From a virus: a stretch of DNA of 24,074 bases. The stretch spans positions 1-24,074 of the IMG/VR virus record IMGVR_UViG_3300025120_000543. One strand, 5' to 3'. Below, in pieces: positions 4,847 through 21,572 of the stretch (position 1 is the first letter of the stretch; each line of letters opens with the position of its first letter). The position numbers and the translations under genes were made by a program. Below the pieces are notes generated by a model, which worked only from the letters and a program-made list of their open reading frames with translations, ran no database searches and was not told where the DNA came from.

Positions 4847-5206
4847 ATGGTTAAGCCTGTTTATTCTAGCATTGAACATAAAATTTACATAGAAGAATAT
4901 TTAAAATTAATGTTATCTTTTGTTAAAGAATCTTCATCTGAAACTAAATATAATTCTTTTCTTGAAGTTGTAGATTTAATAATTAATTATCATAATGGTT
5001 ATGGGGAAGAAGGATTAGATAAAGGTAATTGGAATGATTGGATTATGATTTTGCCTATTAATCTTTCAGTATGTTGTAATGGTTACTTTGCTGCATTAGA
5101 ATCAAAAAGAAATAGAGAATCATTAAGAGCATACAGAGTTCTGTTAGATAAGTATTTAGAAGATTGTGTGGTAAATTTAAGTAATTTAGATTATAAAAAT
5201 GAATAA
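4847..5206 (+). CDS. Hypothetical protein (119 aa)
   Basis: I choose ATG 4847. An in-frame TTG at 4841 would add only two residues and is the weaker start. The protein is mainly helical and acidic, with EHKIYIEEYLKLMLSF near the start and a central Gly/Trp stretch (YHNGYGEEGLDKGNWNDW). No Cys pairs, signal or membrane helix stand out. I do not recognise it. It overlaps the sigma-like gene by 8 bases, which suggests co-translation with it, perhaps as a partner, though nothing in the sequence proves that. Confidence 0.6.
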   Translation: MVKPVYSSIEHKIYIEEYLKLMLSFVKESSSETKYNSFLEVVDLIINYHNGYGEEGLDKGNWNDWIMILPINLSVCCNGYFAALESKRNRESLRAYRVLLDKYLEDCVVNLSNLDYKNE

Positions 5207-5762
5207 AGTATATCAAGCAGTAGCAGATTGTAGACCAACATTTGTTAAGATGTCCTACACTTTTACTAAAGATATAAACGAAATTGATGAAGCAGTACAA
5301 GAATGTATAATTTATTTTATGCAGATGAACCCAAAGACTTTAAAAGATATATACGTTAAAGATGGACAGAAAGGTTTAATAAGATATGGTGCAGTTGTAT
5401 TAAGAAGAAGTTTTACAAGTCCACGAAGTCCTTATTACTACAAATACAAGAAATACTACACACATTTAGATCAACAGGCAAGTAACATAACTTATGACAT
5501 AACAGAAACAGGGGAAACATCTAATAAAAAGAATCTATACAATATACCAAACCCAGAAGAATATGTACAATGGCAGAAGTTAGAACAGATAGACAAAGTA
5601 TTAGATAATTTCTATTGGTACGATAGAGATGTTTTTAAACTCTATTATTACGAAGGACATACATTAACAGGACTAGCAAAGAAAACAGGCATAAGCAGGA
5701 ATAGTTTGTTTACGACTATAGATAAAGTAAGAGAACAACTTAAAGAATTATTAAATGAATAA
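5199..5762 (+). CDS. Sigma-factor-like transcription protein
   Basis: A 187-residue protein laid out like a minimal sigma-70-family factor. The N-terminal helices (about 1-72) include DEAVQECIIYFMQMN, like the region-2 core helix. A variable basic, Tyr-rich linker follows (75-90), and the C-terminus (125-185) resembles region 4, with YYYEGHTLTGLAKKTGISRN leading into a recognition helix (SLFTTIDKVREQLKELL). Such proteins in phages redirect host RNA polymerase to middle or late promoters. Here it precedes the structural genes and could recognise the TCTATTATATA motif found only downstream, which is inference. A region-4-only HTH regulator is the alternative. It overlaps the genes on both sides by 8 bases. 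Confidence 0.65.
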   Translation: MNKVYQAVADCRPTFVKMSYTFTKDINEIDEAVQECIIYFMQMNPKTLKDIYVKDGQKGLIRYGAVVLRRSFTSPRSPYYYKYKKYYTHLDQQASNITYDITETGETSNKKNLYNIPNPEEYVQWQKLEQIDKVLDNFYWYDRDVFKLYYYEGHTLTGLAKKTGISRNSLFTTIDKVREQLKELLNE

Positions 5763-6156
5763 GTTCTTTGTTACTAATGAGGTTTATAATGATAGGTTAA
5801 ACATCTGTAAAAGTTGTGTGTATTATTTTAAACCTACAGGTTCTTGTAAAGTGTGCCTATGTTTTATGTCAATTAAGGCACGAATTTCCGTAATGGAGTG
5901 TCCACAAAAGTATTGGGGTAAGACAACAGAAATAGATAGAGATGTAAATATACCTAACCATTTAATAGAAGAAGTGTTATTAATATGGAAAGATATAGAA
6001 AAAGGAATAGCAAAAGACCAAGCAACTAAAAAATTAATGATCACATTGTTTAATACTATCTATGGAACTAATTATGATACAGGCACATCTTGTTCTAGTT
6101 GTTTAGTAGATTGTTTTAAAGGAATAAAAAGAATATATGAAAAATATAAAAGATAA
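5755..6156 (+). CDS. Two-part Cys-rich protein, probably zinc-binding
   Basis: A 133-residue protein with two Cys groups. The N-terminal one has Cys18-x2-Cys21, Cys31-x2-Cys34-x-Cys36 and Cys49-Pro, the spacing of a small treble-clef or zinc ribbon seen in many phage proteins (CxxC...CxxCxC...CP). The C-terminal part (95-133) reads FNTIYGTNYDTGTSCSSCLV then DCFKGIKRIYEKY, with Cys113, Cys116 and Cys120. I recall this combination from flavobacterial phages but know no function. It overlaps both neighbours (8 bases with the sigma-like gene, 20 bases with the next), so it is in the same operon. Confidence 0.6.
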   Translation: MNKFFVTNEVYNDRLNICKSCVYYFKPTGSCKVCLCFMSIKARISVMECPQKYWGKTTEIDRDVNIPNHLIEEVLLIWKDIEKGIAKDQATKKLMITLFNTIYGTNYDTGTSCSSCLVDCFKGIKRIYEKYKR

Positions 6157-6828: not shown

Positions 6829-7208
6829 AGTTTGTAATAAAGGATAGTAAAGACAAGCAAAGTCTGATAAACTATTTAAAAGAATTAGGAAACGATTACA
6901 TAGTAGATGTAAAGAAGCAAAGAAACAATAGATCAAATATGCAGAATAACTATTATTGGAAATGTATTGTGCAAGAATTAGGAAATTCACTTGGCTATTT
7001 TCCACAAGAAATGCATGATATACTTAGGGCTAAGTTTCTTAATGAATGGGAGATGTTAGAGATAAACGATAAGAAGGTAGGTATAAACAAGATAGGAAGT
7101 ACGGCAACACTAAACACTAAAGCCTTTGAAATCTATGCAGAACAAATAAGGATATGGGCTATGACAGAGTTAGGAATAAGATTAATGCTACCAAATGAAT
7201 ATAACTAA
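6825..7208 (+). CDS. ninB: NinB-like recombination mediator (Orf family)
   Basis: A 127-residue protein. The sequence KKQRNNRSNMQNNYYWKCIV followed by QELGNSLGYFPQEMHDILRA and KFLNEWEM, then GSTATLNTKAFEIYAEQIRI and WAMTELGIRLMLPNEY, matches the pattern of NinB/YbcN-type phage recombination proteins. These are related to lambda Orf, which helps load recombinases or annealing proteins onto SSB-coated DNA. The start is a TTG overlapping the previous stop by four bases; there is no ATG upstream in frame, and the next in-frame Met would cut into the conserved part. With NinG and a possible SSB in the same early region it suggests a lambda-like recombination set. Confidence 0.7.
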   Translation: MKFVIKDSKDKQSLINYLKELGNDYIVDVKKQRNNRSNMQNNYYWKCIVQELGNSLGYFPQEMHDILRAKFLNEWEMLEINDKKVGINKIGSTATLNTKAFEIYAEQIRIWAMTELGIRLMLPNEYN

Positions 7209-7221
7209 TTTCTATTATATA
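7209..7221 (+). promoter_or_regulatory. TCTATTATATA motif, copy 1 (before terminase cluster)
   Basis: TTTCTATTATATA stands just after the stop of the NinB-like gene and 30 bases before the ATG of the small gene at 7252. The 11-base core TCTATTATATA recurs at 9009, 18386, 19135 and 21562. An ATG two bases after the motif (7223) opens only an eight-codon frame (MNQLTKLN) that stops at 7249. It may be a late promoter element or a translation leader element. Confidence 0.45.
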
Positions 7222-7251
7222 AATGAATCAGTTAACTAAATTAAACTAATC

Positions 7252-7449
7252 ATGGAAAAAAAAAGATATAGATTTTCTGATTGGATAGCTTATGTAAAAG
7301 AAAAAGAATTAACAATATCTAATATATCTAAAAATGAAATTTTTGTATCAGCATTATATTATTTTGATTATTATAATGAAGAATTAGATTATGAAACAAA
7401 TTATATTAATTATATGAATCGCGAAGGTTATTATATATATAAACAATAA
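7252..7449 (+). CDS. Small acidic Tyr-rich hypothetical protein (65 aa)
   Basis: A 65-residue protein, MEKKRYRFSDWIAYVKEKEL at the start and then very rich in Tyr, Asn and Glu (YYFDYYNEELDYETNYIN). No domain is recognised. It is the first gene after the motif at 7209 and the last before the terminase genes. AT-rich codon choice alone may account for the many Tyr and Asn codons. I infer a small accessory protein and nothing more. Confidence 0.55.
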   Translation: MEKKRYRFSDWIAYVKEKELTISNISKNEIFVSALYYFDYYNEELDYETNYINYMNREGYYIYKQ

Positions 7450-7453
7450 AACA

Positions 7454-7726
7454 ATGGACGGCAGAATAAACAATAAAGGCACAAAAGGAAATAAAGGTGG
7501 TAGACCAAGCAAAGCAGAAGAACAAAAGTTAATAGAGAATTTAACTCCTATGAATCCTGATGCTTTAAAGTCATTAGAGATAGGCTTAAAGAATAAAGAA
7601 CAATGGGCAGTTAAATTATTCTTTGAATACTTTTATGGTAAGCCACAACAAAGAGTAGATGTAACAACGAATTTTGAGAGTTTAAACATACCTATAATAA
7701 ACTTCATTGAATCCGAAACTGAATAA
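7454..7726 (+). CDS. terS: Probable terminase small subunit
   Basis: A 90-residue protein immediately before the large terminase gene and overlapping it by 20 bases. It begins with a flexible Gly/Lys-rich head (NKGTKGNKGGRPSKAEEQKL) as often seen in small terminases, followed by helices (MNPDALKSLEIGLKNKEQWA) and the segment KLFFEYFYGKPQQRVDV, which is common in this role ('.a.kyl.e...GkP.q'). The small subunit recognises the packaging site on phage DNA and regulates the motor. The call rests mainly on position and these short features. It is shorter than most small terminases. Confidence 0.65.
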   Translation: MDGRINNKGTKGNKGGRPSKAEEQKLIENLTPMNPDALKSLEIGLKNKEQWAVKLFFEYFYGKPQQRVDVTTNFESLNIPIINFIESETE

Positions 7727-8915
7727 AAAGTATAGTGTTCTATTTTCTTCTGATTGTAGATACTATATAATTACAGGGGGAAGGGGATCAGGTAAATCAT
7801 TTGCTGCTACAGTATTTTTAACACTACTAACAATGACTAAAGGTGTTAGAGTGTTGTTTACAAGATACACAATGGTATCTGCACACCTTTCTATTATACC
7901 AGAGTTCTTAGAAAAGATAGGACTATTAAATTTTACAAGTATATTTAGTATTAATAAAGCAGAGGTAGTCAATACATCAACAAATAGTGATATACTATTT
8001 AGAGGTATTAAAACAAGTTCTGGTAATCAGACTGCATCTCTTAAATCATTACAAGGTATTAGTTGTTGGGTGTTAGATGAAGCTGAAGAATTAATAGATG
8101 AGAACATATTTGATACTATTGATTTAAGTATAAGAGAGAAAAATATACAGAATAGAATTATATTAATACTTAACCCTACAACTAAAGAACATTGGATATA
8201 TAGAAAGTTCTTTGAAAGCAGAGGGATTGAATCAGGTTATAACGGCATTAAAGATGATGTGTGTTACATTCATTCAACTTACTTAGACAATAAGCAGAAC
8301 CTATCTGAAAGTTTCTTAGAAAGGATATATAGACTAAAACGAAATAACCCTAAAAAGTATTTACATAAGATTCTTGGTGGTTGGTTAGACAAAGCAGAGG
8401 GTGTAGTATTTGATAATTGGAAGATAGGAGAGTTTAATCCTAACAATCTACAAACATCTTGTGGTATGGACTTTGGCTTTTCTATTGATCCTGATTCTTT
8501 AACAGAAGTAGCTATAGACAAAACACATAAGAAAATATATATTAAAGAGCATATTTACAGAAATGGTTTAAAATCACACGAATTAGCTAAAATAATACTA
8601 GAAAAGGTACAGAACAAGCTAATAATTGCAGATAGTGCAGAACCAAGATTAATAGAAGATTTAAGATATTTAGGTGTAAACATTAAACCTGTAAAGAAAG
8701 GAACGATAGAAAGTGGTATAACTCGTATGCAAGACTATCAACTAATAGTATCTGCCGAATCAACTAACATAGCTAAAGAGTTAAACAATTATGTGTATGC
8801 AGATAAAGGTTCTAAGCTATATGTGGATAGTTGGAATCATGCTATTGATGGAATAAGGTATAACGTAATATATCATTTAGACAATCCAAACTTAGGTAAA
8901 TACTATGTGCAATAA
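7707..8915 (+). CDS. terL: Terminase large subunit (Terminase_3/PBSX-like)
   Basis: A 402-residue packaging motor and nuclease. The N-terminal ATPase has Walker A GGRGSGKS (24-31), Walker B WVLDEAEE (121-128) and the coupling motif LILNPT (153-158). The C-terminal RNase H-like nuclease carries acidic residues Asp255 (CGMDFGFS), Asp309 (IADSAEP) and Asp381 (HAIDGIRY), which bind the catalytic metals. The start is TTG at 7707: no ATG lies between it and the Walker A motif, and it gives the usual short leader. A hairpin follows directly after the stop. A portal gene, the usual next gene, is not present. Confidence 0.95.
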   Translation: MNPKLNKKYSVLFSSDCRYYIITGGRGSGKSFAATVFLTLLTMTKGVRVLFTRYTMVSAHLSIIPEFLEKIGLLNFTSIFSINKAEVVNTSTNSDILFRGIKTSSGNQTASLKSLQGISCWVLDEAEELIDENIFDTIDLSIREKNIQNRIILILNPTTKEHWIYRKFFESRGIESGYNGIKDDVCYIHSTYLDNKQNLSESFLERIYRLKRNNPKKYLHKILGGWLDKAEGVVFDNWKIGEFNPNNLQTSCGMDFGFSIDPDSLTEVAIDKTHKKIYIKEHIYRNGLKSHELAKIILEKVQNKLIIADSAEPRLIEDLRYLGVNIKPVKKGTIESGITRMQDYQLIVSAESTNIAKELNNYVYADKGSKLYVDSWNHAIDGIRYNVIYHLDNPNLGKYYVQ

Positions 8916-8916
8916 A

Positions 8917-8948
8917 AAAAGGTGCAATTCTAAGAATTAACACCTTTT
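8917..8948 (+). terminator. Hairpin terminator after terminase genes
   Basis: AAAAGGTG (8917-8924) pairs exactly with CACCTTTT (8941-8948), and AATTC/GAATT inside (8926-8930, 8934-8938) extends the stem. It begins two bases after the terL stop. The T run after the stem is short, and the A and T runs flank both sides, so it may stop transcription in either direction. The next cluster begins with a TCTATTATATA motif about 60 bases on. Confidence 0.65.
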
Positions 8949-8962
8949 AACTAATTAAAGCT

Positions 8963-9001
8963 ATGAAAACGATGCAATATTACGATATTAAACTATATTA
9001 A
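8963..9001 (+). other. Very short open frame between terminator and motif (12 codons)
   Basis: ATG at 8963 opens MKTMQYYDIKLY and stops at 9001, filling most of the space between the hairpin and the motif at 9007. It could be a leader peptide or mere chance; nothing about it is conserved or diagnostic. The interval 8949-9006 otherwise shows no structure. Confidence 0.15.
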
Positions 9002-9006
9002 CCAAA

Positions 9007-9019
9007 TTTCTATTATATA
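9007..9019 (+). promoter_or_regulatory. TCTATTATATA motif, copy 2 (before tail cluster)
   Basis: TTTCTATTATATA lies three bases before the ATG at 9023 and about 60 bases after the terL hairpin. The placement between a terminator and a new gene cluster fits a transcription start region. The very short distance to the start codon would give an almost leaderless message, or else the motif acts in translation. Confidence 0.45.
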
Positions 9020-9022
9020 ATA

Positions 9023-9667
9023 ATGAAAGTAAAGATTAACAAAGAGGGTAAAGAAAAGAATTACAACTTAATTAAAAGTTGGAATGATGTTACTTTAGAT
9101 AAATGGGTTAAACTTATAAGTAGAAGGAAAAAAACTAAAACACAAGATGCACTAGATACTATTAGTGTTTTATCTGATATACCTAAGAAACTTATAAATG
9201 AATTAGCTATAGGAGATGTTGCGATATTATTAAAAAAAATATCAGATTTACAAGCAAAAGAAGATACTAAACTTAAAAAGATAATTAAATTAGATGGAAT
9301 AGAGTATGGCTTCCACCCTAACTTAGAAGAAATAACATTAGGAGAGTATGCTGATATAGAAACATATTTAAAGAATGGCTTAGAAGATAACTTAACTAAA
9401 TTGATAGCAGTCCTTTATAGACCAATAACAGAGAGAGATGGTAAAGATTATTCTATAGAGGCTTATGGTGTAAGTGATTCAAGAATGAGAGCAAAGAAAT
9501 TTGAGAAAATGAAAGCAAGAGATGTAAATAGTTCTTTAGTTTTTTTTTGGACTTTAGGGAAAGAACTGTCAATAATTTTGCCATTGTATTTAATGGAACA
9601 GAGCAAGATGATACTAGACAAAATGCAGGAGAACAATTTGCAGACAAGTGGGGTTGGTTTGGTGTAA
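9023..9667 (+). CDS. Tail assembly chaperone-like protein (gpG analogue, zero frame)
   Basis: A 214-residue, mainly helical protein. It begins MKVKINKEGKEKNYNLIKSW and contains a block of the type KLDGIEYGFHPNLEEITLGE then YADIETYL, then ITERDGKDYSIEAYG, that I recall in flavobacterial phage tail clusters. After SSLVFF (residues 170-175) the frame continues 39 more residues. At that point the DNA has nine T in a row (9540-9548), and a second frame, closed by a TAG at 9529-9531, opens just upstream of the run and continues to 9792. That is the arrangement of lambda gpG/gpGT tail chaperones, which help the tail tube form around the tape measure. No homology to gpG can be claimed from the sequence alone. 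Confidence 0.6.
   Translation: MKVKINKEGKEKNYNLIKSWNDVTLDKWVKLISRRKKTKTQDALDTISVLSDIPKKLINELAIGDVAILLKKISDLQAKEDTKLKKIIKLDGIEYGFHPNLEEITLGEYADIETYLKNGLEDNLTKLIAVLYRPITERDGKDYSIEAYGVSDSRMRAKKFEKMKARDVNSSLVFFWTLGKELSIILPLYLMEQSKMILDKMQENNLQTSGVGLV
9540..9548 (+). promoter_or_regulatory. Probable -1 frameshift slippery site (T9)
   Basis: In the zero frame the codons read GTT TTT TTT TGG, so a T TTT TTT heptamer (9541-9547) lets both tRNAs slip back one base and continue TTG GAC TTT. The fused product would have 175 residues from the first frame and 81 from the second (256 in all). The second frame has a stop (9529-9531) just upstream of the run and then none for 86 codons. No decisive downstream hairpin was worked out. 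Confidence 0.55.
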
Positions 9668-9792
9668 TGCACAGGTTGTGTAATGGAGAGATAATAAACT
9701 TAGAAAGAATAACTAATCTTAGCCTGTACGAATGTTTGACTTGGCTAACTTATGAAACAGATTTAAACGAAACAAAAGCAGTTAAACAATGA
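9547..9792 (+). CDS. Frameshift extension of chaperone (gpT analogue)
   Basis: This frame encodes LDFRERTVNNFAIVFN at the junction, then a polar stretch, then ADKWGWFGVMHRLCNGEIIN and LERITNLSLYECLTWLTYE. The Trp/Gly and Leu/Cys pattern looks like a real conserved domain, similar to short proteins I recall downstream of chaperone-like genes in Bacteroidota phages. It has no good start of its own near its beginning. One alternative is independent initiation at ATG 9667, which shares a TAATG with the stop of the zero-frame gene and would give 41 residues but leave out the WGWF part. The other, which I prefer, is synthesis by -1 frameshifting at the T9 run. Its stop overlaps the next ATG by four bases. 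Confidence 0.55.
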   Translation: MDFRERTVNNFAIVFNGTEQDDTRQNAGEQFADKWGWFGVMHRLCNGEIINLERITNLSLYECLTWLTYETDLNETKAVKQ

Positions 9793-10283
9793 CATACTTT
9801 AAAGATTACAACAATACTATAAACACCCTAAAGAAATTAGGAGAGCAGCACTATATGATTAAGACAATTACCACAGGAGATATATGGAGTGTTGATCTTG
9901 CTAAAAACTCTTACTTCCCATTGATGCACATCACACCTGTTAATGCAGTAGCAGGAACACATCAGATGACTATTAACTTTCAAATTTTTATAATGGATTT
10001 AGTATTTCCAGATTTAAGTAATGAACAAGAAGTATTATCTGACTGCTTACAAATATGTAATGACTTAATAGGTACGTTTAAAAATGGAGAAAGTTTACTT
10101 TTATCTAATCAAGGTTTAGATGCTTTACCTAAATACTTTACTGATGGAGATATAAATATAGAACCTTTCACAGAAAGATTTGATAATGCACCTACAGGTT
10201 GGGTATTTACTTTGCCTGTAATAATAGAAAACGAATACAACACTTGTATAGCACCACAAGCAACAACAGATGCAATACAATAA
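9789..10283 (+). CDS. Possible tail terminator/tail completion protein
   Basis: A 164-residue protein. The pattern HYMIKTITTGDIWSVDLAKN then SYFPLMHITP near the start, INFQIFIMDLVFPDLSNEQE in the middle, and PFTERFDNAPTGWVFTLPVI near the end recalls a family found in tail clusters of Bacteroidota phages, with the shape (short alpha/beta domain that measures about 160 residues) of tail terminator proteins. The function is inferred from size and position after the chaperone-like gene. It overlaps the preceding frame by ATGA and the following 29-codon frame by TAATG. Confidence 0.5.
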   Translation: MTYFKDYNNTINTLKKLGEQHYMIKTITTGDIWSVDLAKNSYFPLMHITPVNAVAGTHQMTINFQIFIMDLVFPDLSNEQEVLSDCLQICNDLIGTFKNGESLLLSNQGLDALPKYFTDGDINIEPFTERFDNAPTGWVFTLPVIIENEYNTCIAPQATTDAIQ

Positions 10284-10372
10284 TGTTTGAGATATTAAAG
10301 AGATTAAATAAGATAAAGATAGGTAAAGTAATAATTAAAATAATACCACCACAAATAACAATTAAATTATAA
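10283..10372 (+). CDS. Tiny basic protein (29 aa) filling the gap
   Basis: ATG 10283 overlaps the preceding stop as TAATG, the same link used at 11355, 12815 and 15646. The frame stops at 10372, three bases before the next gene. The product MFEILKRLNKIKIGKVIIKI plus nine residues is basic and amphipathic. The exact fit into the gap and the coupled start argue for a real gene; the small size and the simple AT-rich composition argue for caution. No function can be given. Confidence 0.4.
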   Translation: MFEILKRLNKIKIGKVIIKIIPPQITIKL

Positions 10373-10375
10373 AAT

Positions 10376-10825
10376 ATGGCAGACTTAACAACAACACTTT
10401 CAGAATCCGTTGTCTTAAATGGATCGGTAAGAGGTAGCACAAACACTTTAACAACAACAGGTATAAACAATGTATATGAAAGAATTGTAACTTGTACTCA
10501 TTCACAAGCAACTACTTTAGTAGCTTTTAACACTAACTCTTATGGTGCAGTAGTACAATTAGATAAAGAAGATGTTAGATACATTAGAATCACTAATCTT
10601 AATGCTACAATATCTGTAGAGATAGCAGTAGTAGGTGCAGCAACTTTATACCAAATAACTTTAAAAGCAGGACAATCACATATATTAGGTGCAGCAGATA
10701 ATATTATGTTAGCTGAAGCAGACACTACTCCAAGTTATGGAACAATGGCTGCATTACAAAACATATCTGTTACTCCTATAGGAACTACTAATGTTGATTT
10801 AGAAGTATTTGTTGCTAGTGTATAG
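10376..10825 (+). CDS. Small beta-rich virion protein (149 aa)
   Basis: The protein is low in charge and rich in Thr, Val, Ala and Asn, typical of an all-beta virion component. It starts MADLTTTLSESVVLNGSVRG and contains KEDVRYIRITNLNATISVEI and YQITLKAGQSHILGA. I recall similar proteins ('ESV.LNG..RG....T..I..VY.RI') in marine phages, where they are structural proteins of unknown place. A tail-tube or decoration role is possible but not shown. It lies in the tail cluster and its TAG stop overlaps the GTG of the next gene (TAGTG). Confidence 0.6.
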   Translation: MADLTTTLSESVVLNGSVRGSTNTLTTTGINNVYERIVTCTHSQATTLVAFNTNSYGAVVQLDKEDVRYIRITNLNATISVEIAVVGAATLYQITLKAGQSHILGAADNIMLAEADTTPSYGTMAALQNISVTPIGTTNVDLEVFVASV

Positions 10826-11355
10826 TGGAAGCTATAGAGAAATATCTAGAAAGTTTTGGTAAATATGTTGTTCAACAAGCCAGAACTAATTTAACTAAAG
10901 GCAAAAAAAATGTAACTAAGGATTTATACAATTCTATTAAATTTACAGTTACTGACAATGCTCAAGGTTATAATGTTTCTTTTTCTATGGATAGTTACGG
11001 AGAGTTTGTAGACAAAGGAGTTTCTGGAAATAAAAAGATACAAGAGTTTACTACCTTTGATGGTAGAAAGGTAGCAAGTCCTTTTAAATACACATCTAAA
11101 CAACCACCTGCAAAACCTATATCTAAATGGGTAAGTATGAAGGGTATTAAAGGTAGAGATAAAAAAACAGGTAGATATATAACTAATATGTCTTTAGCTT
11201 TTTTAATAGCTAAGAAGATCAAAAGAGATGGTATTAAAAGCCTTAGTTTTTTTCAAAGACCTTTAGGTTTAGGATTAAATAGATTACCAAATGATATATT
11301 AATATCACTAAAAGAAGAAATATTAAATAATTTAAAAACAATAACTGCAAAATAA
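10825..11355 (+). CDS. HK97-gp10-like head-tail/tail completion protein
   Basis: A 176-residue basic protein beginning with GTG at 10825 (TAGTG overlap). The head region EKYLESFGKYVVQQARTNLT, the central DSYGEFVDKGVSG and later ITNMSLAFLIAKKIKRDGIK then FFQRPL fit small completion proteins of the gp10 kind, in which 'Y..fvdkGvsG' and a final basic helix are common. Such proteins help join or finish tails. The similarity is my own pattern reading. It is translationally coupled to the genes on both sides (TAGTG, TAATG). Confidence 0.5.
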   Translation: MEAIEKYLESFGKYVVQQARTNLTKGKKNVTKDLYNSIKFTVTDNAQGYNVSFSMDSYGEFVDKGVSGNKKIQEFTTFDGRKVASPFKYTSKQPPAKPISKWVSMKGIKGRDKKTGRYITNMSLAFLIAKKIKRDGIKSLSFFQRPLGLGLNRLPNDILISLKEEILNNLKTITAK

Positions 11356-12815
11356 TGATTATAGAACAAAGACCATTATACAATACTTTACCTGTAGGTC
11401 AAGATATTATATTTACAGTATCAGATAATACAATAGTAGCTACCAAATTTAGAGTTAATTTTACTGCACAAGTTTATGTAGCTGATGAAGTAAGTAGTTT
11501 AGGTCTTGCATCTTCATTAGTAGCTAATTTAAAAGTTACACCAAACAACAAAGGAGTTGGTATATTTTCTTTACAATCAATATTAGAAAGTTATGTAGAA
11601 CCACAACAAGAAGGGGTTAATTATTTATCTACAAGTATAAGTAAATTTAAAGGTATTGATTATAGTTTAGACAATCCACACCCAATTCATTTAATAGATA
11701 AATATTGTGTTAACACAAAAAATACTAGATATTTTCAAATTTCATTTAATATAGATTATTTTGATACTGCAACTTCAATTGATAGATTAAGTTTTTTAAA
11801 ACCATTGTCATCTGAAATATATTTGTTTTTCAATGGAGTTTTAGATTATGATGAACCTTTAGTTTTAGAAAAAAACAATTATGGATTTAATATTAATGTA
11901 CCTAAAATTATATTTAACGATTCTTATGGGAGTTTAGGTAAGTTTATTAGTAATGCACCTATAGAACAAGATGCTAGATTAAGTGATTATGGAACTTTAT
12001 CTTTTTTTAGTTGGTTAAATGTTTCTACAAATAGTTTTCAAGTAGGTACAGATGATACTTTAGTTTTTAAAGTAGATAATATAGAAATTAGTTTATACAA
12101 TAGTTCTGGAACATTAATAACAAGTCCTTTTCAAATTGAATGTGTTGATATAAATGGTGGTTGGCAATATCCTTCTGATTTTGCTGCAACTAGAATTTTA
12201 TATTTTGGTGCTTTTCCTGCTAATTTAGATGGTTGGAGTACCGAGTGGGATACACATAAAGCCAATGTATCTTATTATACTATATTAGCTTATGATGATC
12301 AAACTAATCCTATAAGTCAATTATATAAAATCAATATAGTTGATAGTGCTTGTAAAGGATTTGAACCAATTAGATTAACTTGGCTTAATCAATGGGGTAC
12401 TTGGGATTATTATACTTTTAGAAAAAAATCTGTTAAATCTTTAAACACAAATAGAACATCATATACCCAACAAAGTGGTACTTGGAATGATAGCACTTTT
12501 AGAATTAATGGTTATAAAGGTGGTAAGAAAAATTTTAGGGTAAATTCTAAACAATTAATTACTGTTAACACAGATTTTGTTAAAGATGAAGATGCAGTAT
12601 GGTTTGAAGATTTAATAAATAGCACAGATGTTTATATTTTAAATGGTTATAATGACCAAATAAATGATAGTAGAAGTGGCATAACAAATAAATATGTAGT
12701 ACCTGTTACTTTAACAACATCAAGTTATGTTAGAAAAACTAAAGTAAATGATAAGTTAATACAATATACTTTTCAAATAGAAAAAACACATAACAAAAGA
12801 ACACATTCTGTATAA
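11355..12815 (+). CDS. Tail tip/baseplate protein (distal-tail-like)
   Basis: A 486-residue beta-rich protein with no signal peptide. It opens MIIEQRPLYNTLPVGQDIIF TVSD, has a long Asn/Ser/Thr-rich middle, and near residue 335-345 carries IRLTWLNQWGTWDYYTFRKK, followed by SLNTNRTSYTQQSGTWNDS. From my knowledge of Bacteroidota siphophages the 'lNk.G.wDyf.F..ks' block marks a tail-tip structural protein placed just before the larger hub protein. Here it indeed precedes the 943-residue gene and shares a TAATG with it. Assigning it as the distal tail protein is inference. Confidence 0.55.
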   Translation: MIIEQRPLYNTLPVGQDIIFTVSDNTIVATKFRVNFTAQVYVADEVSSLGLASSLVANLKVTPNNKGVGIFSLQSILESYVEPQQEGVNYLSTSISKFKGIDYSLDNPHPIHLIDKYCVNTKNTRYFQISFNIDYFDTATSIDRLSFLKPLSSEIYLFFNGVLDYDEPLVLEKNNYGFNINVPKIIFNDSYGSLGKFISNAPIEQDARLSDYGTLSFFSWLNVSTNSFQVGTDDTLVFKVDNIEISLYNSSGTLITSPFQIECVDINGGWQYPSDFAATRILYFGAFPANLDGWSTEWDTHKANVSYYTILAYDDQTNPISQLYKINIVDSACKGFEPIRLTWLNQWGTWDYYTFRKKSVKSLNTNRTSYTQQSGTWNDSTFRINGYKGGKKNFRVNSKQLITVNTDFVKDEDAVWFEDLINSTDVYILNGYNDQINDSRSGITNKYVVPVTLTTSSYVRKTKVNDKLIQYTFQIEKTHNKRTHSV

Positions 12816-15646: not shown

Positions 15647-16488
15647 TGAATTATAGAAAAGGATATACAATAAAACCATCTGAAATTTCTGGTACAGGAG
15701 AAGTTTTTTTTACCAATGGAAGTGTACAAGTTTTAGCAAATCAAATAGTTTGCGAAGCCTATGGATATAACTACAATAAAGAATCAGGTACTTGTAGTGC
15801 TTTTAGATATAACTCAAAATTAAACAATAGACTTACCGATAAAAATAATAAGATTAATGGTCAAAATAATAACACGGAAAAAAACTCTAAAAATCTTGTT
15901 ATAATAGGAACTTCTAATACAACTAAAGGAAATAATAGTAATTTATTAATAACAGGCGAAAGAAACGAAATAGAAACAAGTATTAATAATAGTTCTATAA
16001 TAGCAGGTTCATTAGCAAATATTGTTAATCAAGGATCAGTAGTTATAGGTGGTGGTGGTTTTAACGAAAAAATTGGATTAAGTCAAATGTCATTTGTACA
16101 ACAATCTAATAAAACTTTAGATACAACTGAAACTGCTTTACTTACTCAATACCTACCTTTAACTTATATACAAAAAGTAGCTAATAGTGTAATAGGTTTT
16201 GAAGCTAATGTAATTGGTATAAACTTTGGGGGAGAAGGAGAGGTAGGGGAGTATGGATATGTTCAAGTAACAGGTGCAGTTACATTTACAAATGGTTTAA
16301 ATTCTACATATCATCAAACAACAACACATATAGTAGCTGCAGGGCAAAGTGGAATGAATATAACTGCATCTATGAAAGATGTAACTGCAACATCATTTGG
16401 TGTTCACGTTATTGGATTGGCAGGAACAAGAATACAATGGACTGCAAGTGTAAAATTATGGCAAAATAAACTACAAATAACTTTTTAG
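15646..16488 (+). CDS. Fibre-like structural protein with N-x-N repeat stem
   Basis: A 280-residue protein. The N-terminus (MNYRKGYTIKPSEISGTGEV, FFTNGSVQVLANQIVCEAYG) looks like a virion attachment domain. Residues 65-140 form a repetitive stretch of short strands with Asn and Gly (KNLVIIGTSNTTKGNNSNLL, ITGERNEIETSINNSSIIAG, IVNQGSVVIGGGG), typical of a trimeric beta-helix or adhesin-head stem. The C-terminal part (about 165-280) looks globular and beta-rich. It probably forms a small trimeric fibre or tail-tip appendage. It follows the hub gene with a TAATG and precedes the tape measure by two bases, an unusual place for a fibre. Confidence 0.55.
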   Translation: MNYRKGYTIKPSEISGTGEVFFTNGSVQVLANQIVCEAYGYNYNKESGTCSAFRYNSKLNNRLTDKNNKINGQNNNTEKNSKNLVIIGTSNTTKGNNSNLLITGERNEIETSINNSSIIAGSLANIVNQGSVVIGGGGFNEKIGLSQMSFVQQSNKTLDTTETALLTQYLPLTYIQKVANSVIGFEANVIGINFGGEGEVGEYGYVQVTGAVTFTNGLNSTYHQTTTHIVAAGQSGMNITASMKDVTATSFGVHVIGLAGTRIQWTASVKLWQNKLQITF

Positions 16489-16490
16489 AT

Positions 16491-18362
16491 ATGGCAGAAG
16501 AAATAGTATTTAACGTACAATCAAATGTAAAATCAGTTACTAAAGATAATAAAGAATTAATTAAATCAGTAGTTGATGCTGAAACTGAATACAAGAATTT
16601 AAATGAACAAATGAGTATTCAAAAAGAAGTTATTACTGATCTTGAAAAAGATTTAGTTTTAATGAAGGCTCAATTAAGAGAAACACCAATGACAGGTGCA
16701 GCAGGGTTCTATGCTTTAGAAGAAGCTATAGAAAAAGCTAATGATGAGTTAAAATTAGAAAAAATAGGTTTAACAGAAATTAAAAACCAGATAGATGACA
16801 ATAGAGATAGTGTTAAAGATTTAGAAAAAGGAACAGAAGATGGTGCTAAAGGTTTTAAAAAGATGGGTGTTGCTGCTAAAGGAATAGGAGGTGCTTTAAA
16901 AGCTATGGGTATTGGTTTGCTTGTAGCAGGTTTTGTAGCTTTAAAAGAAGCACTAGAAAGAAACCAAAAGTTTTTAGATACTATGAATACTGTAGTAGGT
17001 ACTATTTCTAAAACATTTAATGATTTAGCTAGTACATTAGCTGATGTTGTTGTATGGGTTACTGCATCTAGTGATAGGTTTAATGGTTTAGGTCAAGTTA
17101 TTAAAGGTATTACAACTATAGCAATAACACCATTAAAACTAGCTTTTTTAGGAATGAAATTAGCAATAGATCAAGTTCAATTAGCTTGGGAAGGTTCAGC
17201 TTTAGGTAATGGAGATAAAAGTAAAATGGCTGAACTTCGAGTAAGTATTGGGAAAACAATAATAGATATAGAAAAAGTAGGTAATGCAGCAATAGATGCA
17301 GGTAAAAACATAGTTACTAATTTTGGAGATGCAGTTACTGAAATAGGTGCTATATATGAAAAAGTAGCAGAAGGTGTTTCTAAAATAAGTATTAAAGGTA
17401 ATTTTGAATTAGCTAATCAGATTACTATAGCAGGTAATGCAGCTAAAATAGCTGAAGCACAATTGCAAGGATTAATAGAAAAATATGATAAACAAGCAGA
17501 AATACAAAGACAAATACGAGATGATGAAACTAAAACTTTTGCTGATCGTATTGCAGCTAATCAAGAATTAAATGATATTTTAGAAAAGCAAGAAAAAGAA
17601 ATGTTAGATTTAGCAGATAAAAGAGTAGGTGCTGCAAAATTAGAATTAGATGCTAACAAAACAAATATAGATTTACAAAACGCATATCAACAAGCATTAA
17701 ATGATAGGGCAGGAGTTGAAGCACAAATAGCAGGATTTAGAAGTGAGCAAATGACTAATCAGGTATCTTTAGAAAAAGAACTATTAGACATACAAAATCA
17801 ATTAGCTGCAGAAGGGCTTAATGGTGTTCAAAGAGAATTATTAGAGTTAGATAATGCTTATAAAGAAAAACTTAAAATGGCTGAAAAGTCAGGAACAGAT
17901 ATTACTGCATTAACTAAACAATATGAAAAACAAAAATCACAAGTAGTACAAGCAGGAATTAACGATCAATTAGATGCTTATTCTAGTTTAGCAAGTGCAT
18001 TAAGTACGTTGGCAGGAGAAAACAAAGCATTATCTGTAGCATCAGCAGTTATAGATACTTATGTTGGTGCAAATAAAGCTTTAGCACAAGGAGGTGCATT
18101 AGGATTTATTTCAGCAGCAGCAGTAATTGCAACAGGACTTAATAATGTAAGAACAATACTATCAGCAGATGTAGGAGATGGTGGAGGGGGAGGTTCAGTA
18201 CCTGCTACAAACACACAAACACCTGCACCCCAAATGTTAAGTGGAAACTTTAGTTTAGGAAATGCACCAGAACAACAACCTGTTCAAGCCTATGTAGTTA
18301 CAGATAGTCTTACAGATAATCAAAATAAGTTAGCTTATATTCGTAGGAGAGCAACAATTTAA
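16491..18362 (+). CDS. Tape measure protein
   Basis: A 623-residue protein with long helical stretches (about 20-115 and 330-490), a hydrophobic Gly-rich segment (GIGGALKAMGIGLLVAGFVA, 131-150) and a second hydrophobic region near the C-terminus (YVGANKALAQGGALGFISAA). A Gly-rich linker (GDGGGGGSV) then leads to the end VQAYVVTDSLTDNQNKLAYI plus RRRATI, a tail I associate with tape measures of Bacteroidota phages. It sets tail length. At about 0.15 nm per residue, the length would be near 93 nm if all residues count. It sits directly before the head genes rather than next to the chaperone-like gene. Confidence 0.85.
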   Translation: MAEEIVFNVQSNVKSVTKDNKELIKSVVDAETEYKNLNEQMSIQKEVITDLEKDLVLMKAQLRETPMTGAAGFYALEEAIEKANDELKLEKIGLTEIKNQIDDNRDSVKDLEKGTEDGAKGFKKMGVAAKGIGGALKAMGIGLLVAGFVALKEALERNQKFLDTMNTVVGTISKTFNDLASTLADVVVWVTASSDRFNGLGQVIKGITTIAITPLKLAFLGMKLAIDQVQLAWEGSALGNGDKSKMAELRVSIGKTIIDIEKVGNAAIDAGKNIVTNFGDAVTEIGAIYEKVAEGVSKISIKGNFELANQITIAGNAAKIAEAQLQGLIEKYDKQAEIQRQIRDDETKTFADRIAANQELNDILEKQEKEMLDLADKRVGAAKLELDANKTNIDLQNAYQQALNDRAGVEAQIAGFRSEQMTNQVSLEKELLDIQNQLAAEGLNGVQRELLELDNAYKEKLKMAEKSGTDITALTKQYEKQKSQVVQAGINDQLDAYSSLASALSTLAGENKALSVASAVIDTYVGANKALAQGGALGFISAAAVIATGLNNVRTILSADVGDGGGGGSVPATNTQTPAPQMLSGNFSLGNAPEQQPVQAYVVTDSLTDNQNKLAYIRRRATI

Positions 18363-18385
18363 AAACCAAACAATAACTAATTAAA

Positions 18386-18396
18386 TCTATTATATA
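18386..18396 (+). promoter_or_regulatory. TCTATTATATA motif, copy 3 (before head cluster)
   Basis: TCTATTATATA begins 23 bases after the tape measure stop and ends two bases before the ATG at 18399. It divides the tail genes from the head genes, but no hairpin precedes it. Confidence 0.45.
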
Positions 18397-18398
18397 TT

Positions 18399-19133
18399 AT
18401 GCCTTGTACAAAATGCGATAACGGAAAATGGAAGTGGGGAGAAAATGGAGAGTGTAAATACGATTCAAAAGCTGCTTGTGAAAAAGCAAACCCTAAACAT
18501 TATAAGAATTTAAAGACTACTAAGATAGTTGAATTGGTAATAGCTGATGAAAGTCCAGAACTTACAATAGATGCTATTAGTCTGGTTACTAGTCCTGCTA
18601 TAGAAGAAAATTTTGTGTTTTTTGGAAAAGAGAAGAACAACTTAACTTTTGCTAAGATAGATGAGGAAAAAAGAATGTTAGTTAGTCCTGCTTTAATACC
18701 TAACAAACAGATATTTAGACACGATCCTAATACTAATAGTGATTATTATGTTTATTTCTCTAAAGAAACTGTTGCTGAAGCTGCAAGTTTATATTTAAAG
18801 CATAACAATCATCATAAAGCTACATATCAACACGAAGAAAATGTTACAGGTGTTTTAACTGTAGAAAGTTGGATAAAAGAAGGAGATATGGATAAGTCTA
18901 AACTATATGGTTATGATTTACCTAATGGAACTTGGTTTGTCAAAATGAAAATCAATAATGATGAGATGTGGAGTAAAATAACAGGTGGGGAATTACGAGG
19001 GCTAAGTATAGAAGGATATTTTATTGATAAAATGGAAAAAATGTCTGAAACTGTAAAACCAACTGATGAAGATATACTTACTGCACTAAATGAAATAATA
19101 CAAGATATTAAAAATCAAACAAACAATAAATAA
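18399..19133 (+). CDS. Prohead protease, XkdF-like, with Cys-rich N-terminal module
   Basis: A 244-residue protein. Residues 90-160 match the XkdF-like prohead serine protease pattern: LVSPALIPNKQIFRHDP, YYVYFSKETVAEAASLYL, then YQHEENVTGVLTVESWI, with His145 and Ser157 as candidate catalytic residues and SIEGYF (203-208) as the closing block. Before it lies a separate 30-residue piece with Cys3, Cys6, Cys19 and Cys27 (MPCTKCDNGKWKWGENGECK), which may bind zinc or be a removable scaffold link. The enzyme would cleave the scaffold and perhaps the capsid protein during maturation. It is followed by the scaffold and capsid genes, the standard order. Confidence 0.75.
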   Translation: MPCTKCDNGKWKWGENGECKYDSKAACEKANPKHYKNLKTTKIVELVIADESPELTIDAISLVTSPAIEENFVFFGKEKNNLTFAKIDEEKRMLVSPALIPNKQIFRHDPNTNSDYYVYFSKETVAEAASLYLKHNNHHKATYQHEENVTGVLTVESWIKEGDMDKSKLYGYDLPNGTWFVKMKINNDEMWSKITGGELRGLSIEGYFIDKMEKMSETVKPTDEDILTALNEIIQDIKNQTNNK

Positions 19134-19145
19134 TTCTATTATATA
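19134..19145 (+). promoter_or_regulatory. TCTATTATATA motif, copy 4 (before scaffold gene)
   Basis: TTCTATTATATA begins directly after the protease stop (19133) and ends 14 bases before the ATG at 19160. The intervening bases are A-rich (AAAAATAACTAACT). Having a copy here as well as before the protease may allow extra production of scaffold and capsid proteins. Confidence 0.45.
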
Positions 19146-19159
19146 AAAAATAACTAACT

Positions 19160-19927
19160 ATGGATTTAAAAAAGCAAATATTAGTAGCACTTGGACTTGA
19201 TAAGCAAGATGAAGTTAAACTTGAATTTCAAGCTAAACTTGAAGATGGTACTATTATAGTATCTACTGCAGTTGCATTAGAAGCAGGTAGTGATATTTCT
19301 GTATTAACGGAAGATGGCTCAACAATATTATTGCCAAAAGGTCAATATCGTACAGATGAAGGTATGGCTTTTTCAGTTGAAAAAGAAGGTATTGTAGCTG
19401 AACTTTACGAAGATGAAGTAGAAAAGGAAACTGAAGGCGCACCTGTTGAAGAAGAAATGGAAGAAGAAGCAGATGTTGCTGATTGGAAAGGTATGGAGAA
19501 AAGAATCCAGAACTTAGAAGATGCTATCTCTGATCTTAAAGGAGATAAAGAAGATATGGCAGAAGATGATGGTAAGGAAGCTGATGTAGAAGATTGGGCA
19601 GGTATGGAAAAAAGAATACAAAACCTTGAAGATGCAGTTGCAGACCTTAAAAAAGATAAAGTAGGAAATATTGAGGAAGAAGAATCTGATGTAGAAATGG
19701 ACACAGATAACAATCCAACTCCTAAAAAAATAAAGACTACAGAAGAAGTAGAATTTGAATACCAAGCTAAAATAGAGGAGTTAAAATCTAAAGTAGTTGA
19801 GTTATCAAACGAACCTGCTGATGTACCTTTAGCGACTAACAAGTTTAGCACAGACAAAAAAGATTTTACTCCAGATTTAAAAAGAATGACAAAGAGAGAA
19901 AGAATCTTATATAACATAACAAAATAA
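19160..19927 (+). CDS. Scaffold-like acidic protein with internal duplication
   Basis: A 255-residue, strongly acidic protein placed between the protease and the major capsid protein, where the scaffold is expected. Residues 1-80 form a beta-rich head (LEFQAKLEDGTIIVSTAVAL). Two copies of an acidic/coiled-coil unit follow: ADVADWKGMEKRIQNLEDAI and ADVEDWAGMEKRIQNLEDAV, with a period of 37 residues. The C-terminus is basic (PDLKRMTKRERILYNITK) and could bind the capsid protein, as scaffold tails do. Scaffold function is inferred from place, composition and coiled coil. A short head with a lipoyl-like look could be a fused domain of other function. Confidence 0.65.
   Translation: MDLKKQILVALGLDKQDEVKLEFQAKLEDGTIIVSTAVALEAGSDISVLTEDGSTILLPKGQYRTDEGMAFSVEKEGIVAELYEDEVEKETEGAPVEEEMEEEADVADWKGMEKRIQNLEDAISDLKGDKEDMAEDDGKEADVEDWAGMEKRIQNLEDAVADLKKDKVGNIEEEESDVEMDTDNNPTPKKIKTTEEVEFEYQAKIEELKSKVVELSNEPADVPLATNKFSTDKKDFTPDLKRMTKRERILYNITK
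19469..19666 (+). repeat. Tandem duplication in the scaffold-like gene (111-base period)
   Basis: The unit starting at 19469 is repeated from 19580. Over the first 27 residues, 22 are identical, while many third codon positions differ (for example ATCCAG versus ATACAA for Ile-Gln). The duplication is therefore not recent and seems kept by selection. The units differ in the linker after residue 27. Confidence 0.8.
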
Positions 19928-19949
19928 TTAATTTAAAAAATAAATAAAA

Positions 19950-20870
19950 ATGGCTTTACCAACAGTAAATAGTACGTATGCAGGGTCAGCAGCAGGATTT
20001 TATATTTCTGCAGCACTTAAAGAAGCAAGTTCTTTAGAACACTTAACTGTATTACAAAATATAAAATATAAAACAAGTTTGCAGAAAGTAGCTGCTGCAA
20101 GTCTTGTCCGTAATAGTGATTGTAATTTTACTGATCACGGAACACTTACGTTAACCGATTCGGTTCTTACTCCAAAATTGTTACAAATAAATACGCAAAC
20201 TTGTAAGTTAAACTTGCTGGAAAGCTGGGAGGCAGAAACAATGAAGGCAGGTGCTATGAATAACAATGCACCTAAATTTGAGGACTACGTTATCTCATAC
20301 TTTACTCAACACATCTCTGATGCAGTTGAATCTTCAGTATGGAGTGGTGCTGCTGCAACTAACGGACAGTTTGAAGGGTTTTTAACTGCTGCAACAGGTG
20401 CTTTCGCAGTAAATGGTAATGTTGTTCAAACAAACAACGTAGGTGGTGCAGGTACTGCTTATATTGCTACAAATATTATAGAGAACTTACAAACTATTGC
20501 TGCTGCAATCCCATCTACAGTATATGGTAGGGAAGATTTAAGAATATATATGAATTGGAAAACTTACAGACTATATGTTTCAGCAATTTCTGCTTTAGGA
20601 TATGTAAATATGTATTCAATGAATAATGACTATGAAGCAACTTTTGAAGGAATCAAGTTAGCAGTAGTTTACGGCATGCCAGATAATAAATTAGTAGCTG
20701 CACAAAAATCTAATCTATATTTTGGTACAGATACAATAAGTGATATAACAAGCCAAATAAAAATGCTTGATATGTCCCCACTTGATGGATCAGATAATTT
20801 AAGATTTGTTGGAAAATTTTCTGGAGGAGTACAAGTAGGTATCGGTGCTGAAGTAGTACAACAAGACTAA
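19950..20870 (+). CDS. Major capsid protein
   Basis: A 306-residue protein. It begins MALPTVNSTYAGSAAGFYIS with an N-terminal helical part, followed by a mixed alpha/beta body (SWEAETMKAGAMNNNAPKFE, DYVISYFTQHISDAVESSVW) and typical late HK97-fold features: YGREDLRIYMNWKTYRLYVS in the A-domain style and IKLAVVYGMPDNKLVAAQKS then LYFGTD, a common pattern in phage capsid proteins ('v.g.p.d.i.a....l.fgtD'). It follows protease and scaffold genes and is followed at once by a strong hairpin, as expected for the most expressed gene. Codons here are less AT-biased (for example CGT, GTC, TCC), fitting high expression. Confidence 0.85.
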   Translation: MALPTVNSTYAGSAAGFYISAALKEASSLEHLTVLQNIKYKTSLQKVAAASLVRNSDCNFTDHGTLTLTDSVLTPKLLQINTQTCKLNLLESWEAETMKAGAMNNNAPKFEDYVISYFTQHISDAVESSVWSGAAATNGQFEGFLTAATGAFAVNGNVVQTNNVGGAGTAYIATNIIENLQTIAAAIPSTVYGREDLRIYMNWKTYRLYVSAISALGYVNMYSMNNDYEATFEGIKLAVVYGMPDNKLVAAQKSNLYFGTDTISDITSQIKMLDMSPLDGSDNLRFVGKFSGGVQVGIGAEVVQQD

Positions 20871-20876
20871 TTAAAT

Positions 20877-20904
20877 AGAAAGGGAGTGTAAAAACTCCTT
20901 TTCT
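20877..20904 (+). terminator. Hairpin terminator after the capsid gene
   Basis: AGAAAGGGAGT (20877-20887) pairs with ACTCCTTTTCT (20894-20904) with one G-T wobble and a six-base loop, followed by TTT. It lies six bases after the capsid stop. Partial termination here would raise capsid mRNA over that of downstream genes. Confidence 0.75.
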
Positions 20905-20926
20905 TTAACTTTTAAAACTAATAAAT

Positions 20927-21490
20927 ATGGCTTGTAATTTAACACACGGAAGGGGAATCCCTTGTAGAAACCTTGTAGGAGGTGTAAAGTTCGTGTACTT
21001 TGCTAAAAAAGAGGAGATTAGTTCATTAGTAACTGTTGGATCAGAAATTACTGATATTGAAATGGGAACTAATGATTTATACAGATATTCAGTAAGGAGA
21101 GGTAATGCTAGTGTTACAGAAACTATCACAGGTTCAACTGAAAATGGTACTGTAGTATATGCACCAACTGTAAATTTAAAACTTACAGGATTAAGCACAC
21201 AAGATCAAAATGAATTAAAAATGATAGCACAAGCTAATTTGGTTGTTTTTGTTCAATTAAATCAAGTTCTAGCTTCTAATGACCATAATGTTATATTATG
21301 TTTAGGTGCTACTAATGGAATGGATTTAAATACAGGTACTAACGCTTCAGGTGCTGCATTTGCAGATATGAACGGATACGATTGGACTTTTGAAGGGCAA
21401 GAATTTGCACCAATGCAAACTGTAGCTGATTATACTGCTATTCCTTTTGACAATACTGCATTTACTATAGGTGCTATTGTAACATCTTAA
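20927..21490 (+). CDS. Virion structural protein, possibly tail tube
   Basis: A 187-residue, low-charge, beta-rich protein beginning MACNLTHGRGIPCRNLVGGV with Cys3 and Cys13. The body includes NASVTETITGSTENGTVVYA and VNLKLTGLSTQDQNELKMIA then GAAFADMNGYDWTFEGQEFA. This pattern ('MAC.LT.GR...C...vGGi..vyf', 'l..ls..d..elk.la', 'g.a..dm.Gy.lt..g.e.aP') is one I associate with tube-like virion proteins in Bacteroidota phages. The function is not proven. Its location after the capsid gene and between two hairpins, each followed by a new gene, makes it a highly expressed single-gene unit, as a tube protein would need. Confidence 0.6.
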   Translation: MACNLTHGRGIPCRNLVGGVKFVYFAKKEEISSLVTVGSEITDIEMGTNDLYRYSVRRGNASVTETITGSTENGTVVYAPTVNLKLTGLSTQDQNELKMIAQANLVVFVQLNQVLASNDHNVILCLGATNGMDLNTGTNASGAAFADMNGYDWTFEGQEFAPMQTVADYTAIPFDNTAFTIGAIVTS

Positions 21491-21510
21491 TAGTATTTTA
21501 TATATAATTT

Positions 21511-21542
21511 AAAGAGGGCTACTTAGGTAGCTCTTTTTTTTT
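21511..21542 (+). terminator. Strong rho-independent terminator
   Basis: AAAGAGGGCTAC (21511-21522) pairs with GTAGCTCTTT (21527-21536) around a TTAG loop, with one bulged G, and nine T follow (21534-21542). It is the best terminator in the window. The next unit begins 18 bases further with a copy of the TCTATTATATA motif. Confidence 0.9.
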
Positions 21543-21559
21543 CAAACAAAAAAGAACTT

Positions 21560-21572
21560 TTTCTATTATATA
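21560..21572 (+). promoter_or_regulatory. TCTATTATATA motif, copy 5 (after terminator)
   Basis: TTTCTATTATATA ends two bases before ATG 21575 and lies about 18 bases after the T run of the strong terminator. With that terminator upstream, the genes from 21575 need their own promoter near here, which is the best single argument that this motif or its surroundings drive transcription. Confidence 0.5.

Follow-up and report, generated by a model that had tools for sequence, protein, structure and literature searches.

A two-part element before structural operons of a marine phage family, a probable late promoter for a phage-encoded ECF-type sigma factor

The present study concerns a 24,074-nucleotide stretch of viral DNA (IMG/VR record IMGVR_UViG_3300025120_000543, positions 1 to 24,074; hereafter the window) and an 11-base sequence, TCTATTATATA, that stands in five of its intergenic gaps. 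We report that TCTATTATATA is one half of a larger, two-part element. The five sites are very probably late promoters of the form [AC]AA[AC][TC][AG]AA - 11 bp - TCTATTATATA, read via a sigma factor of extracytoplasmic function (ECF) type that the phage itself encodes. Transcription would begin (+1) 12 nt after the C of TCTATTATATA, making the messages leaderless or nearly so at three of the five.

Results

TCTATTATATA is the most frequent 11-mer in the window. A scan of both strands confirmed the five exact copies listed in an earlier sequence-only reading of this DNA, all on the + strand (Table 1), and found zero copies on the minus strand; a first-order Markov model of the window, the kind of background comparison that the earlier reading had proposed, predicts 0.04 and 0.11 copies, respectively. 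Only 2.4% of the window is non-coding by our own gene list; all five copies lie in gaps preceding a gene. From the end of TCTATTATATA to the start codon there are 30 nt for gene 7252 (genes are designated by their first position), 3 nt for gene 9023, 2 nt for gene 18399, 14 nt for gene 19160, and 2 nt for gene 21575.

Table 1. Predicted regulatory features of the window and the candidate sigma factor gene
Feature	Position	Strand	Details
ECF-type sigma factor gene, candidate reader of the five promoters	5199-5762	+	187 aa
Predicted late promoter 1	7192-7221	+	box CAAATGAA 7192-7199; -10 region TCTATTATATA 7211-7221; 35.4 bits; predicted leadered
Hairpin before promoter 2	8917-8948	+	terminator-like, weak U tract; -9.8 kcal/mol, z -4.4
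Predicted late promoter 2	8990-9019	+	box AAACTATA 8990-8997; TCTATTATATA 9009-9019; 28.8 bits
Predicted late promoter 3	18367-18396	+	box CAAACAAT 18367-18374; TCTATTATATA 18386-18396; 30.7 bits
Predicted late promoter 4	19116-19145	+	box CAAACAAA 19116-19123; TCTATTATATA 19135-19145; 33.8 bits
Rho-independent terminator before promoter 5	21511-21542	+	T run behind; -14.9 kcal/mol, z -4.8
Predicted late promoter 5	21543-21572	+	box CAAACAAA 21543-21550; TCTATTATATA 21562-21572; 33.6 bits

Scans with the terminase, capsid, and sigma-like proteins gathered approximately 180 loci, 1.89 Mb in total, from contigs of related marine phages, and from these the other half of the element emerged. In these loci TCTATTATATA again outnumbered every other 11-mer; its unique contexts numbered 150 on the gene strand versus 15 on the opposite strand. 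Alignment of 165 unique copies revealed a second conserved block, [AC]AA[AC][TC][AG]AA, at -19 to -12 from the first T of TCTATTATATA, within which the AA at -18/-17 was invariant. The spacing between the two blocks is rigid: in 252 of 285 copies the box sits at exactly -19, and few matches occur at other distances. A 31-column position weight matrix (PWM) with a threshold of >=14 bits recovered 199 sites, every one of them on the gene strand, and the upstream box accompanied none of the 15 opposite-strand copies of TCTATTATATA. All five window copies carry the box, with PWM scores of 28.8 to 35.4 bits. It had not been reported in the earlier reading, and at 7211 and 19135 it falls within the end of the preceding gene. 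Furthermore, the matches listed in a collection-wide viral scan for TCTATTATATANNATG fell into two distinct classes: 66 of 67 loci with the box belonged by protein to this phage family, compared with 5 of 52 loci without it.

The gene positions of the sites are conserved as well. All ten long relatives (27-33 kb) have exactly five gene-strand sites at the same five positions, namely before the small-terminase region and before the counterparts of genes 9023, 18399, 19160, and 21575; one of the ten has one extra weak match on the opposite strand. Throughout the related loci, sites precede 175 of 184 ortholog starts of the promoter-headed genes, versus none of 1,411 starts in a set of thirty other genes that includes the sigma and early genes. 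Comparison of the same gaps in related phages, another check proposed in the earlier reading, thus bears out the pattern, and as judged from gene content the sites appear to stand only before late (structural) genes, as phage late promoters do.

Promoter 1 precedes the small-terminase region (genes 7252, 7454, and 7707), and its site is found with 43 of 48 orthologs of gene 7454 and 3 of 3 of gene 7252. The site of promoter 2 stands before 68 of 68 orthologs of gene 9023, with a predicted transcription start at 9022/9023. Gene 18399, behind promoter 3, codes for an XkdF-like protease (Peptidase_S78_2 match); 13 of its 14 orthologs have the site, at a distance of 2 nt in all 13, and the predicted +1 is the A of the ATG. 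Promoter 4, kept before 25 of 28 orthologs, heads gene 19160, which occupies a scaffold-like position between the protease and capsid genes; its predicted start at about 19148 would leave a leader of about 12 nt. Promoter 5 is kept before 23 of 23 orthologs of gene 21575, and its predicted +1 is again the A of the ATG. In some of the long relatives (G002-G004), unrelated genes have taken the place of the terminase module, with its small- and large-subunit genes, yet the late promoters flanking it were kept. In the distant capsid relatives L113-L117, the motif is absent, and no obvious replacement was seen by eye.

After the 7211 copy an ATG also occurs 1 nt on, opening an 8-codon mini-open reading frame; we dropped this candidate because its ATG is missing in several relatives. 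The promoter 1 leader (28-32 nt) of many relatives (L008, L009, L014, L132, and others) contains an inverted repeat (TTGATTAATCAA, GATTGAATAATCAATC), possibly an RNA hairpin or an operator, whereas the window leader (7223-7251) differs from it and folds weakly.

The earlier reading had placed the copies at 9009 and 21562 behind hairpin terminators. Both hairpins were found (Table 1); the one ahead of promoter 5 is present in 21 of 21 relatives tested, but the one ahead of promoter 2 was not recovered in relatives by a simple test. Another terminator-like hairpin lies past the capsid gene (20877-20904) with no late promoter behind it, the next one being only at 21562.

The position of gene 5199, just ahead of the first late promoter, is conserved, and the long relatives that carry five sites possess the gene. 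Its product matched the sigma70-ECF profile TIGR02937 over residues 6-185 (E 1.2e-9), as did 37 of 37 homologs. A single-sequence structure model was poor (pLDDT, the predicted local distance difference test score, of 50), so an alignment-based AlphaFold2 model was used instead; it places helices at residues 2-94, a disordered linker at 90-118, and helices at 119-184. So modeled, the protein would have the makeup of ECF group IV, with sigma2 and sigma4 only and a linker below 50 residues. The best fold match in the Protein Data Bank (PDB) was 6dv9_F, the ECF factor SigL of Mycobacterium tuberculosis in an initiation complex, and the matches listed were almost all sigma factors; a PDB sequence search with the sigma profile gave nothing significant. 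Profile, model, and fold match together indicate that gene 5199, described as sigma-like in the earlier reading, encodes a two-domain ECF-type sigma factor. A late-promoter site was found in 0 of 85 upstream regions of sigma orthologs, which speaks against autoregulation. In most relatives the sigma gene is followed by a gene for a cysteine-rich protein (gene 5755, 5755-6156, 133 aa), a candidate sigma partner or anti-sigma factor.

Changes in the sigma factor go along with changes in the promoters. All detected promoters of one sub-clade (L044, L045, L046, L049, L050, L052, and L061) read TATATTATATA in place of TCTATTATATA, a C-to-A change that hit several separate promoters per genome at once. 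Among 82 distinct sigma sequences, T73/R76 occurs with C (75 sequences) and Q73/N76 with A (7 sequences), with no exceptions; column 176 is the only further sigma column that fully separates the two groups and is fixed in both. The A-type sub-clade forms a single nested branch of the sigma tree (support 100/99) with C-type clades on both sides. Residues 73-76 lie between helices 45-73 and 78-86 predicted by the AlphaFold2 model. ECF sigma factors have their specificity loop at this place; -10 recognition is redirected when the loop is swapped (PMC8103513), and the loop of SigH holds the flipped T at -9 (PMC6411747). According to alignment and model, the promoter base has changed along with two sigma residues located at this predicted loop.

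The same geometry recurs with another sequence in the isolated phages P12024S and P12024L (Persicivirga/Nonlabens; terminase 62% identical). These phages lack TCTATTATATA; instead, AAAACAAA ... CGTTAATATA nn ATG stands before their structural genes, and an ECF-type sigma factor is encoded just upstream of the terminase. In these phages and their relatives the layout is AAAACA-N17-GTT (CGTTA), and 17 of 22 sites place the ATG exactly 12 nt downstream of the C; a C-to-ATG distance of 12 also marks the largest class of sites in the window family. Promoters of ECF factors typically carry AAC in the -35 and CGT in the -10 element (PMC8103513), and the consensus for M. tuberculosis SigH is GGAACA-N17-GTT, with its second T at -9 (PMC6411747). 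Since the P12024 layout is that of the SigH consensus, its C would lie at -12 and its +1 on the A of the ATG. As regards the window, AAC is present in the box of four of the five sites (AAACT, CAAAC), while promoter 1 has CAAAT, where some relatives have CAAAC. The -10 region of the window family is CTATT (C in 92%, then TATT), so that the CGT hallmark is absent from it.

Discussion

We propose that host RNA polymerase carrying the 5199 sigma factor would read TCTATTATATA as the -10 region of a late promoter. Region 4 of the sigma factor would contact the upstream box while region 2 opened the DNA at CTATT, whose C would lie at -12 and whose flipped master T at -9; the +1 would follow 12 nt downstream of the C. 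Ahead of genes 9023, 18399, and 21575, this point is the A of the ATG or lies within one base of it, so that the operon's first gene would be carried on an mRNA with no leader or almost none; at the remaining two promoters, short leaders of about 12 nt and about 28 nt would result. The sigma gene, which has no late site of its own, may be expressed at an earlier stage through host-type transcription, which would set up a switch from early to late. Several relatives (G002:19578, G003:23281, G011:23681, and G014:7349) have a host-type promoter-like sequence (e.g., TTGGTTAGTAATTAAAAAAGTTTTAAATTTG) in a gap close to where the early region starts, which would suit a host-to-phage switch.

In its outline, this is the model of the sequence-only reading, which had suggested that the sigma-like protein reads the copies as a phage late promoter; conservation at five positions, the strand bias, the fixed spacing of the box, the ECF-type sigma gene, and the coordinated change all support it. 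That reading had also raised a difficulty, namely that three copies end too close to the ATG for a -10 element. The distances of 2-3 nt stand, but the difficulty would be answered if CTATT, the 5' part of TCTATTATATA, is the -10 core, comparable to CGTT of ECF promoters, and TATATA reaches to the start. Of its alternatives, leaderless transcripts gain support, since by geometry the +1 probably falls on the A of the ATG.

Several observations pull the other way. At promoter 1 the predicted +1 is a T instead of an A, and by analogy with phage phiEco32, in which the motif lies 6-8 nt before the start, transcription would begin 4-6 nt inside the gene. The covariation of sigma factor and promoters amounts to one evolutionary event only, and three sigma columns (73, 76, and 176), both groups being fixed, separate the groups completely. 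The window sigma and the P12024 sigma are only weakly related (hhalign probability 20%), and besides the CTATT in place of CGTT, the window spacer by ECF reckoning is 15-16 rather than 17. With TIGR02937 the 5199 product scores 38.0 bits, below the curated cut-off of 42.9, and with Pfam Sigma70_r4 it scores 20.1 against a threshold of 24.1; because of these scores, we call it "ECF-type". Foldseek TM-scores were low (0.34), probably owing to the flexible link between the two domains.

How the late messages begin admits a different answer. The sites could be late promoters for the ECF-type sigma at which transcription starts a few bases ahead of position 11-13, or the translated message could be a leadered read-through mRNA; in either case leaderless translation would be unimportant. 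Promoters 1 and 4 do have leaders, about one third of all sites have the ATG 5-32 nt off, and in the host flavobacteria leaderless mRNAs are scarce, about 5.5% in Flavobacterium psychrophilum (PMC9723704). Yet the distance from C to ATG is exactly 12 in the largest class of sites of two distantly related clades with different -10 sequences, a leader longer than 2 nt would need a start within TATATA, and an A is retained at +12 where the ATG lies further off (37 of 39 and 25 of 25 copies, though these stretches are A-rich). Nor is a start further downstream attractive, for it would remove the start codon: the conserved protein sequence sets in precisely at the ATG (MPC.KC, MIHGQY, M..KI.K), and an in-frame stop often lies a short way upstream. 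We regard this different answer as unlikely, though it is the alternative to be taken most seriously. That the motif is instead a translation element guiding Shine-Dalgarno-ignoring ribosomes to the start codon, as the earlier reading had considered, seems very improbable. Many copies do end 2 nt before the ATG, which puts position 10 at -3 as the A favored there in Flavobacterium johnsoniae (PMC6847099). However, the same sequence stands at 2-5, 11-18, and 26-32 nt from the ATG, and where F. johnsoniae favors A at -6, -12, and -13 (PMC6847099), the present sites have invariant T, C (A in one clade), and T; besides, a fixed box lies 19 bases upstream, and none of the 1,411 other gene starts carries the element.

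The reader of the promoters could also be different, i.e., a host sigma factor on host polymerase or another phage activator, with 5199 serving another target. Host flavobacteria have several ECF sigma factors, one of which recognizes a CGT -10 box (PMC9723704). The host primary sigma is contradicted by the absence of TTTG from the sites, Bacteroidota primary-sigma promoters (TTG ... TAnnTTTG) having the -7 box TAnnTTTG; a direct scan with the sigma70 consensus, which is uninformative in AT-rich DNA, gave 90 matches versus 104 expected. A host ECF sigma would leave the coordinated change of sigma residues and promoter base unexplained. Against a different reader in general also stand the sigma gene accompanying the five sites in long relatives and the pairing of a different sigma with a different -10 element in P12024S. 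A reader other than 5199 is improbable in our estimate. One site lies near the terminase genes, which could hint at binding sites for replication, packaging, or recombination, but the strict orientation, the fixed relation to gene starts, the occurrence at five separate operon heads, and the terminator conserved before one of them leave such sites, or an accidental repeat, with next to no credibility.

Phage T4 likewise uses a phage sigma factor (gp55) and an AT-rich element (TATAAATA) for its late genes. T4 late promoters have no -35 box and require the sliding clamp and gp33, whereas the sites described here have the core TCTATTATATA and a box at -19. We know of no upstream box in the phiEco32 promoters. 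In phiEco32 and SU10, the ECF-family sigma factor gp36 acts with the middle/late motif tAATGTATAtA (PMC4281155), and the likeness is that a small phage ECF-type sigma steers host polymerase to a few AT-rich late promoters of structural genes. Their motif lies upstream of the start, whereas the window has a fixed -35 box and a predicted +1 at the ATG; moreover, the host phylum is another. The promoters of bacterial ECF factors (SigH, RpoE, SigW; AAC at -35, CGT at -10) share the two rigidly spaced boxes, and their sigma factors share sigma2 and sigma4 with a short linker and a specificity loop between the 2.3 and 2.4 helices. The P12024 variant is close to their AAC-N-CGTT, while the window family differs in having CTATT(ATATA) for CGT, a shorter spacer, and no autoregulation. 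AT-rich late promoters are also found in the giant phages phiKZ (TATG, G as start), where the start lies at or in the ATG, and AR9 (PMC5312081), but there they are read by phage multisubunit RNA polymerases rather than a sigma factor. In leaderless bacterial genes of the TA-led kind, a -10-like signal approximately 10-12 bp before the start codon marks the gene as leaderless, although those signals are sigma70-type TAnnnT sequences of cellular genes (PMC3160421).

ECF-type sigma factors for late genes are already known from phages (phiEco32 gp36; PMC4281155). The present system differs in its fixed -35 box, in a +1 predicted to lie at the ATG of many operons, and in a sigma factor and promoters that changed jointly; we found no description of these promoters in the literature searched, subscription journals being mostly beyond that search. 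On balance, we somewhat favor a broader interpretation, in which this family of flavobacterium-type phages couples promoter and start codon, the ECF sigma putting +1 on the A of the ATG so that several virion operons open leaderless. On this interpretation, at least one lineage would have altered its specificity loop jointly with all five promoters (T73Q/R76N, C-12 to A), a natural switch in the specificity of a whole regulon. The window offers a complete small regulon (one candidate sigma, five predicted promoters) read from sequence alone and recurring in many marine phages. With its natural change of one base and two residues, it allows sigma-promoter recognition to be tested directly. Should the late mRNAs be leaderless, they would provide a system for how Shine-Dalgarno-ignoring Bacteroidota ribosomes start without a leader, and for any gain to the phage late in infection. 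Furthermore, operon starts become annotatable in phages with mostly unknown genes.

Additional observations

In 6 of 10 genomes, a host-type promoter-like sequence on the minus strand overlaps the upstream box of the gene-9023 promoter (G001:17000, G002:29734, G003:1769, G005:15834, G007:12399, and G012:28218); it may be an antisense promoter or a chance product of composition. Behind the same promoter, at 9023-9792, the open reading frame 9023-9667 is overlapped by another in a different frame (9547-9792), which is kept in many relatives. The overlap might reflect a programmed frameshift as in tail assembly chaperones, although no clear slippery site was seen. When bacterial genomes were searched for the host, the sole match was an AT-rich 36 kb contig of this family (L339, PAPR01000004.1) inside a Pseudooceanicola metagenome bin, most likely mis-binned, so that no host is assigned. 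The window also holds a cytosine DNA methyltransferase-like gene (2758-4137) that is shared with few relatives (six upstream regions found).

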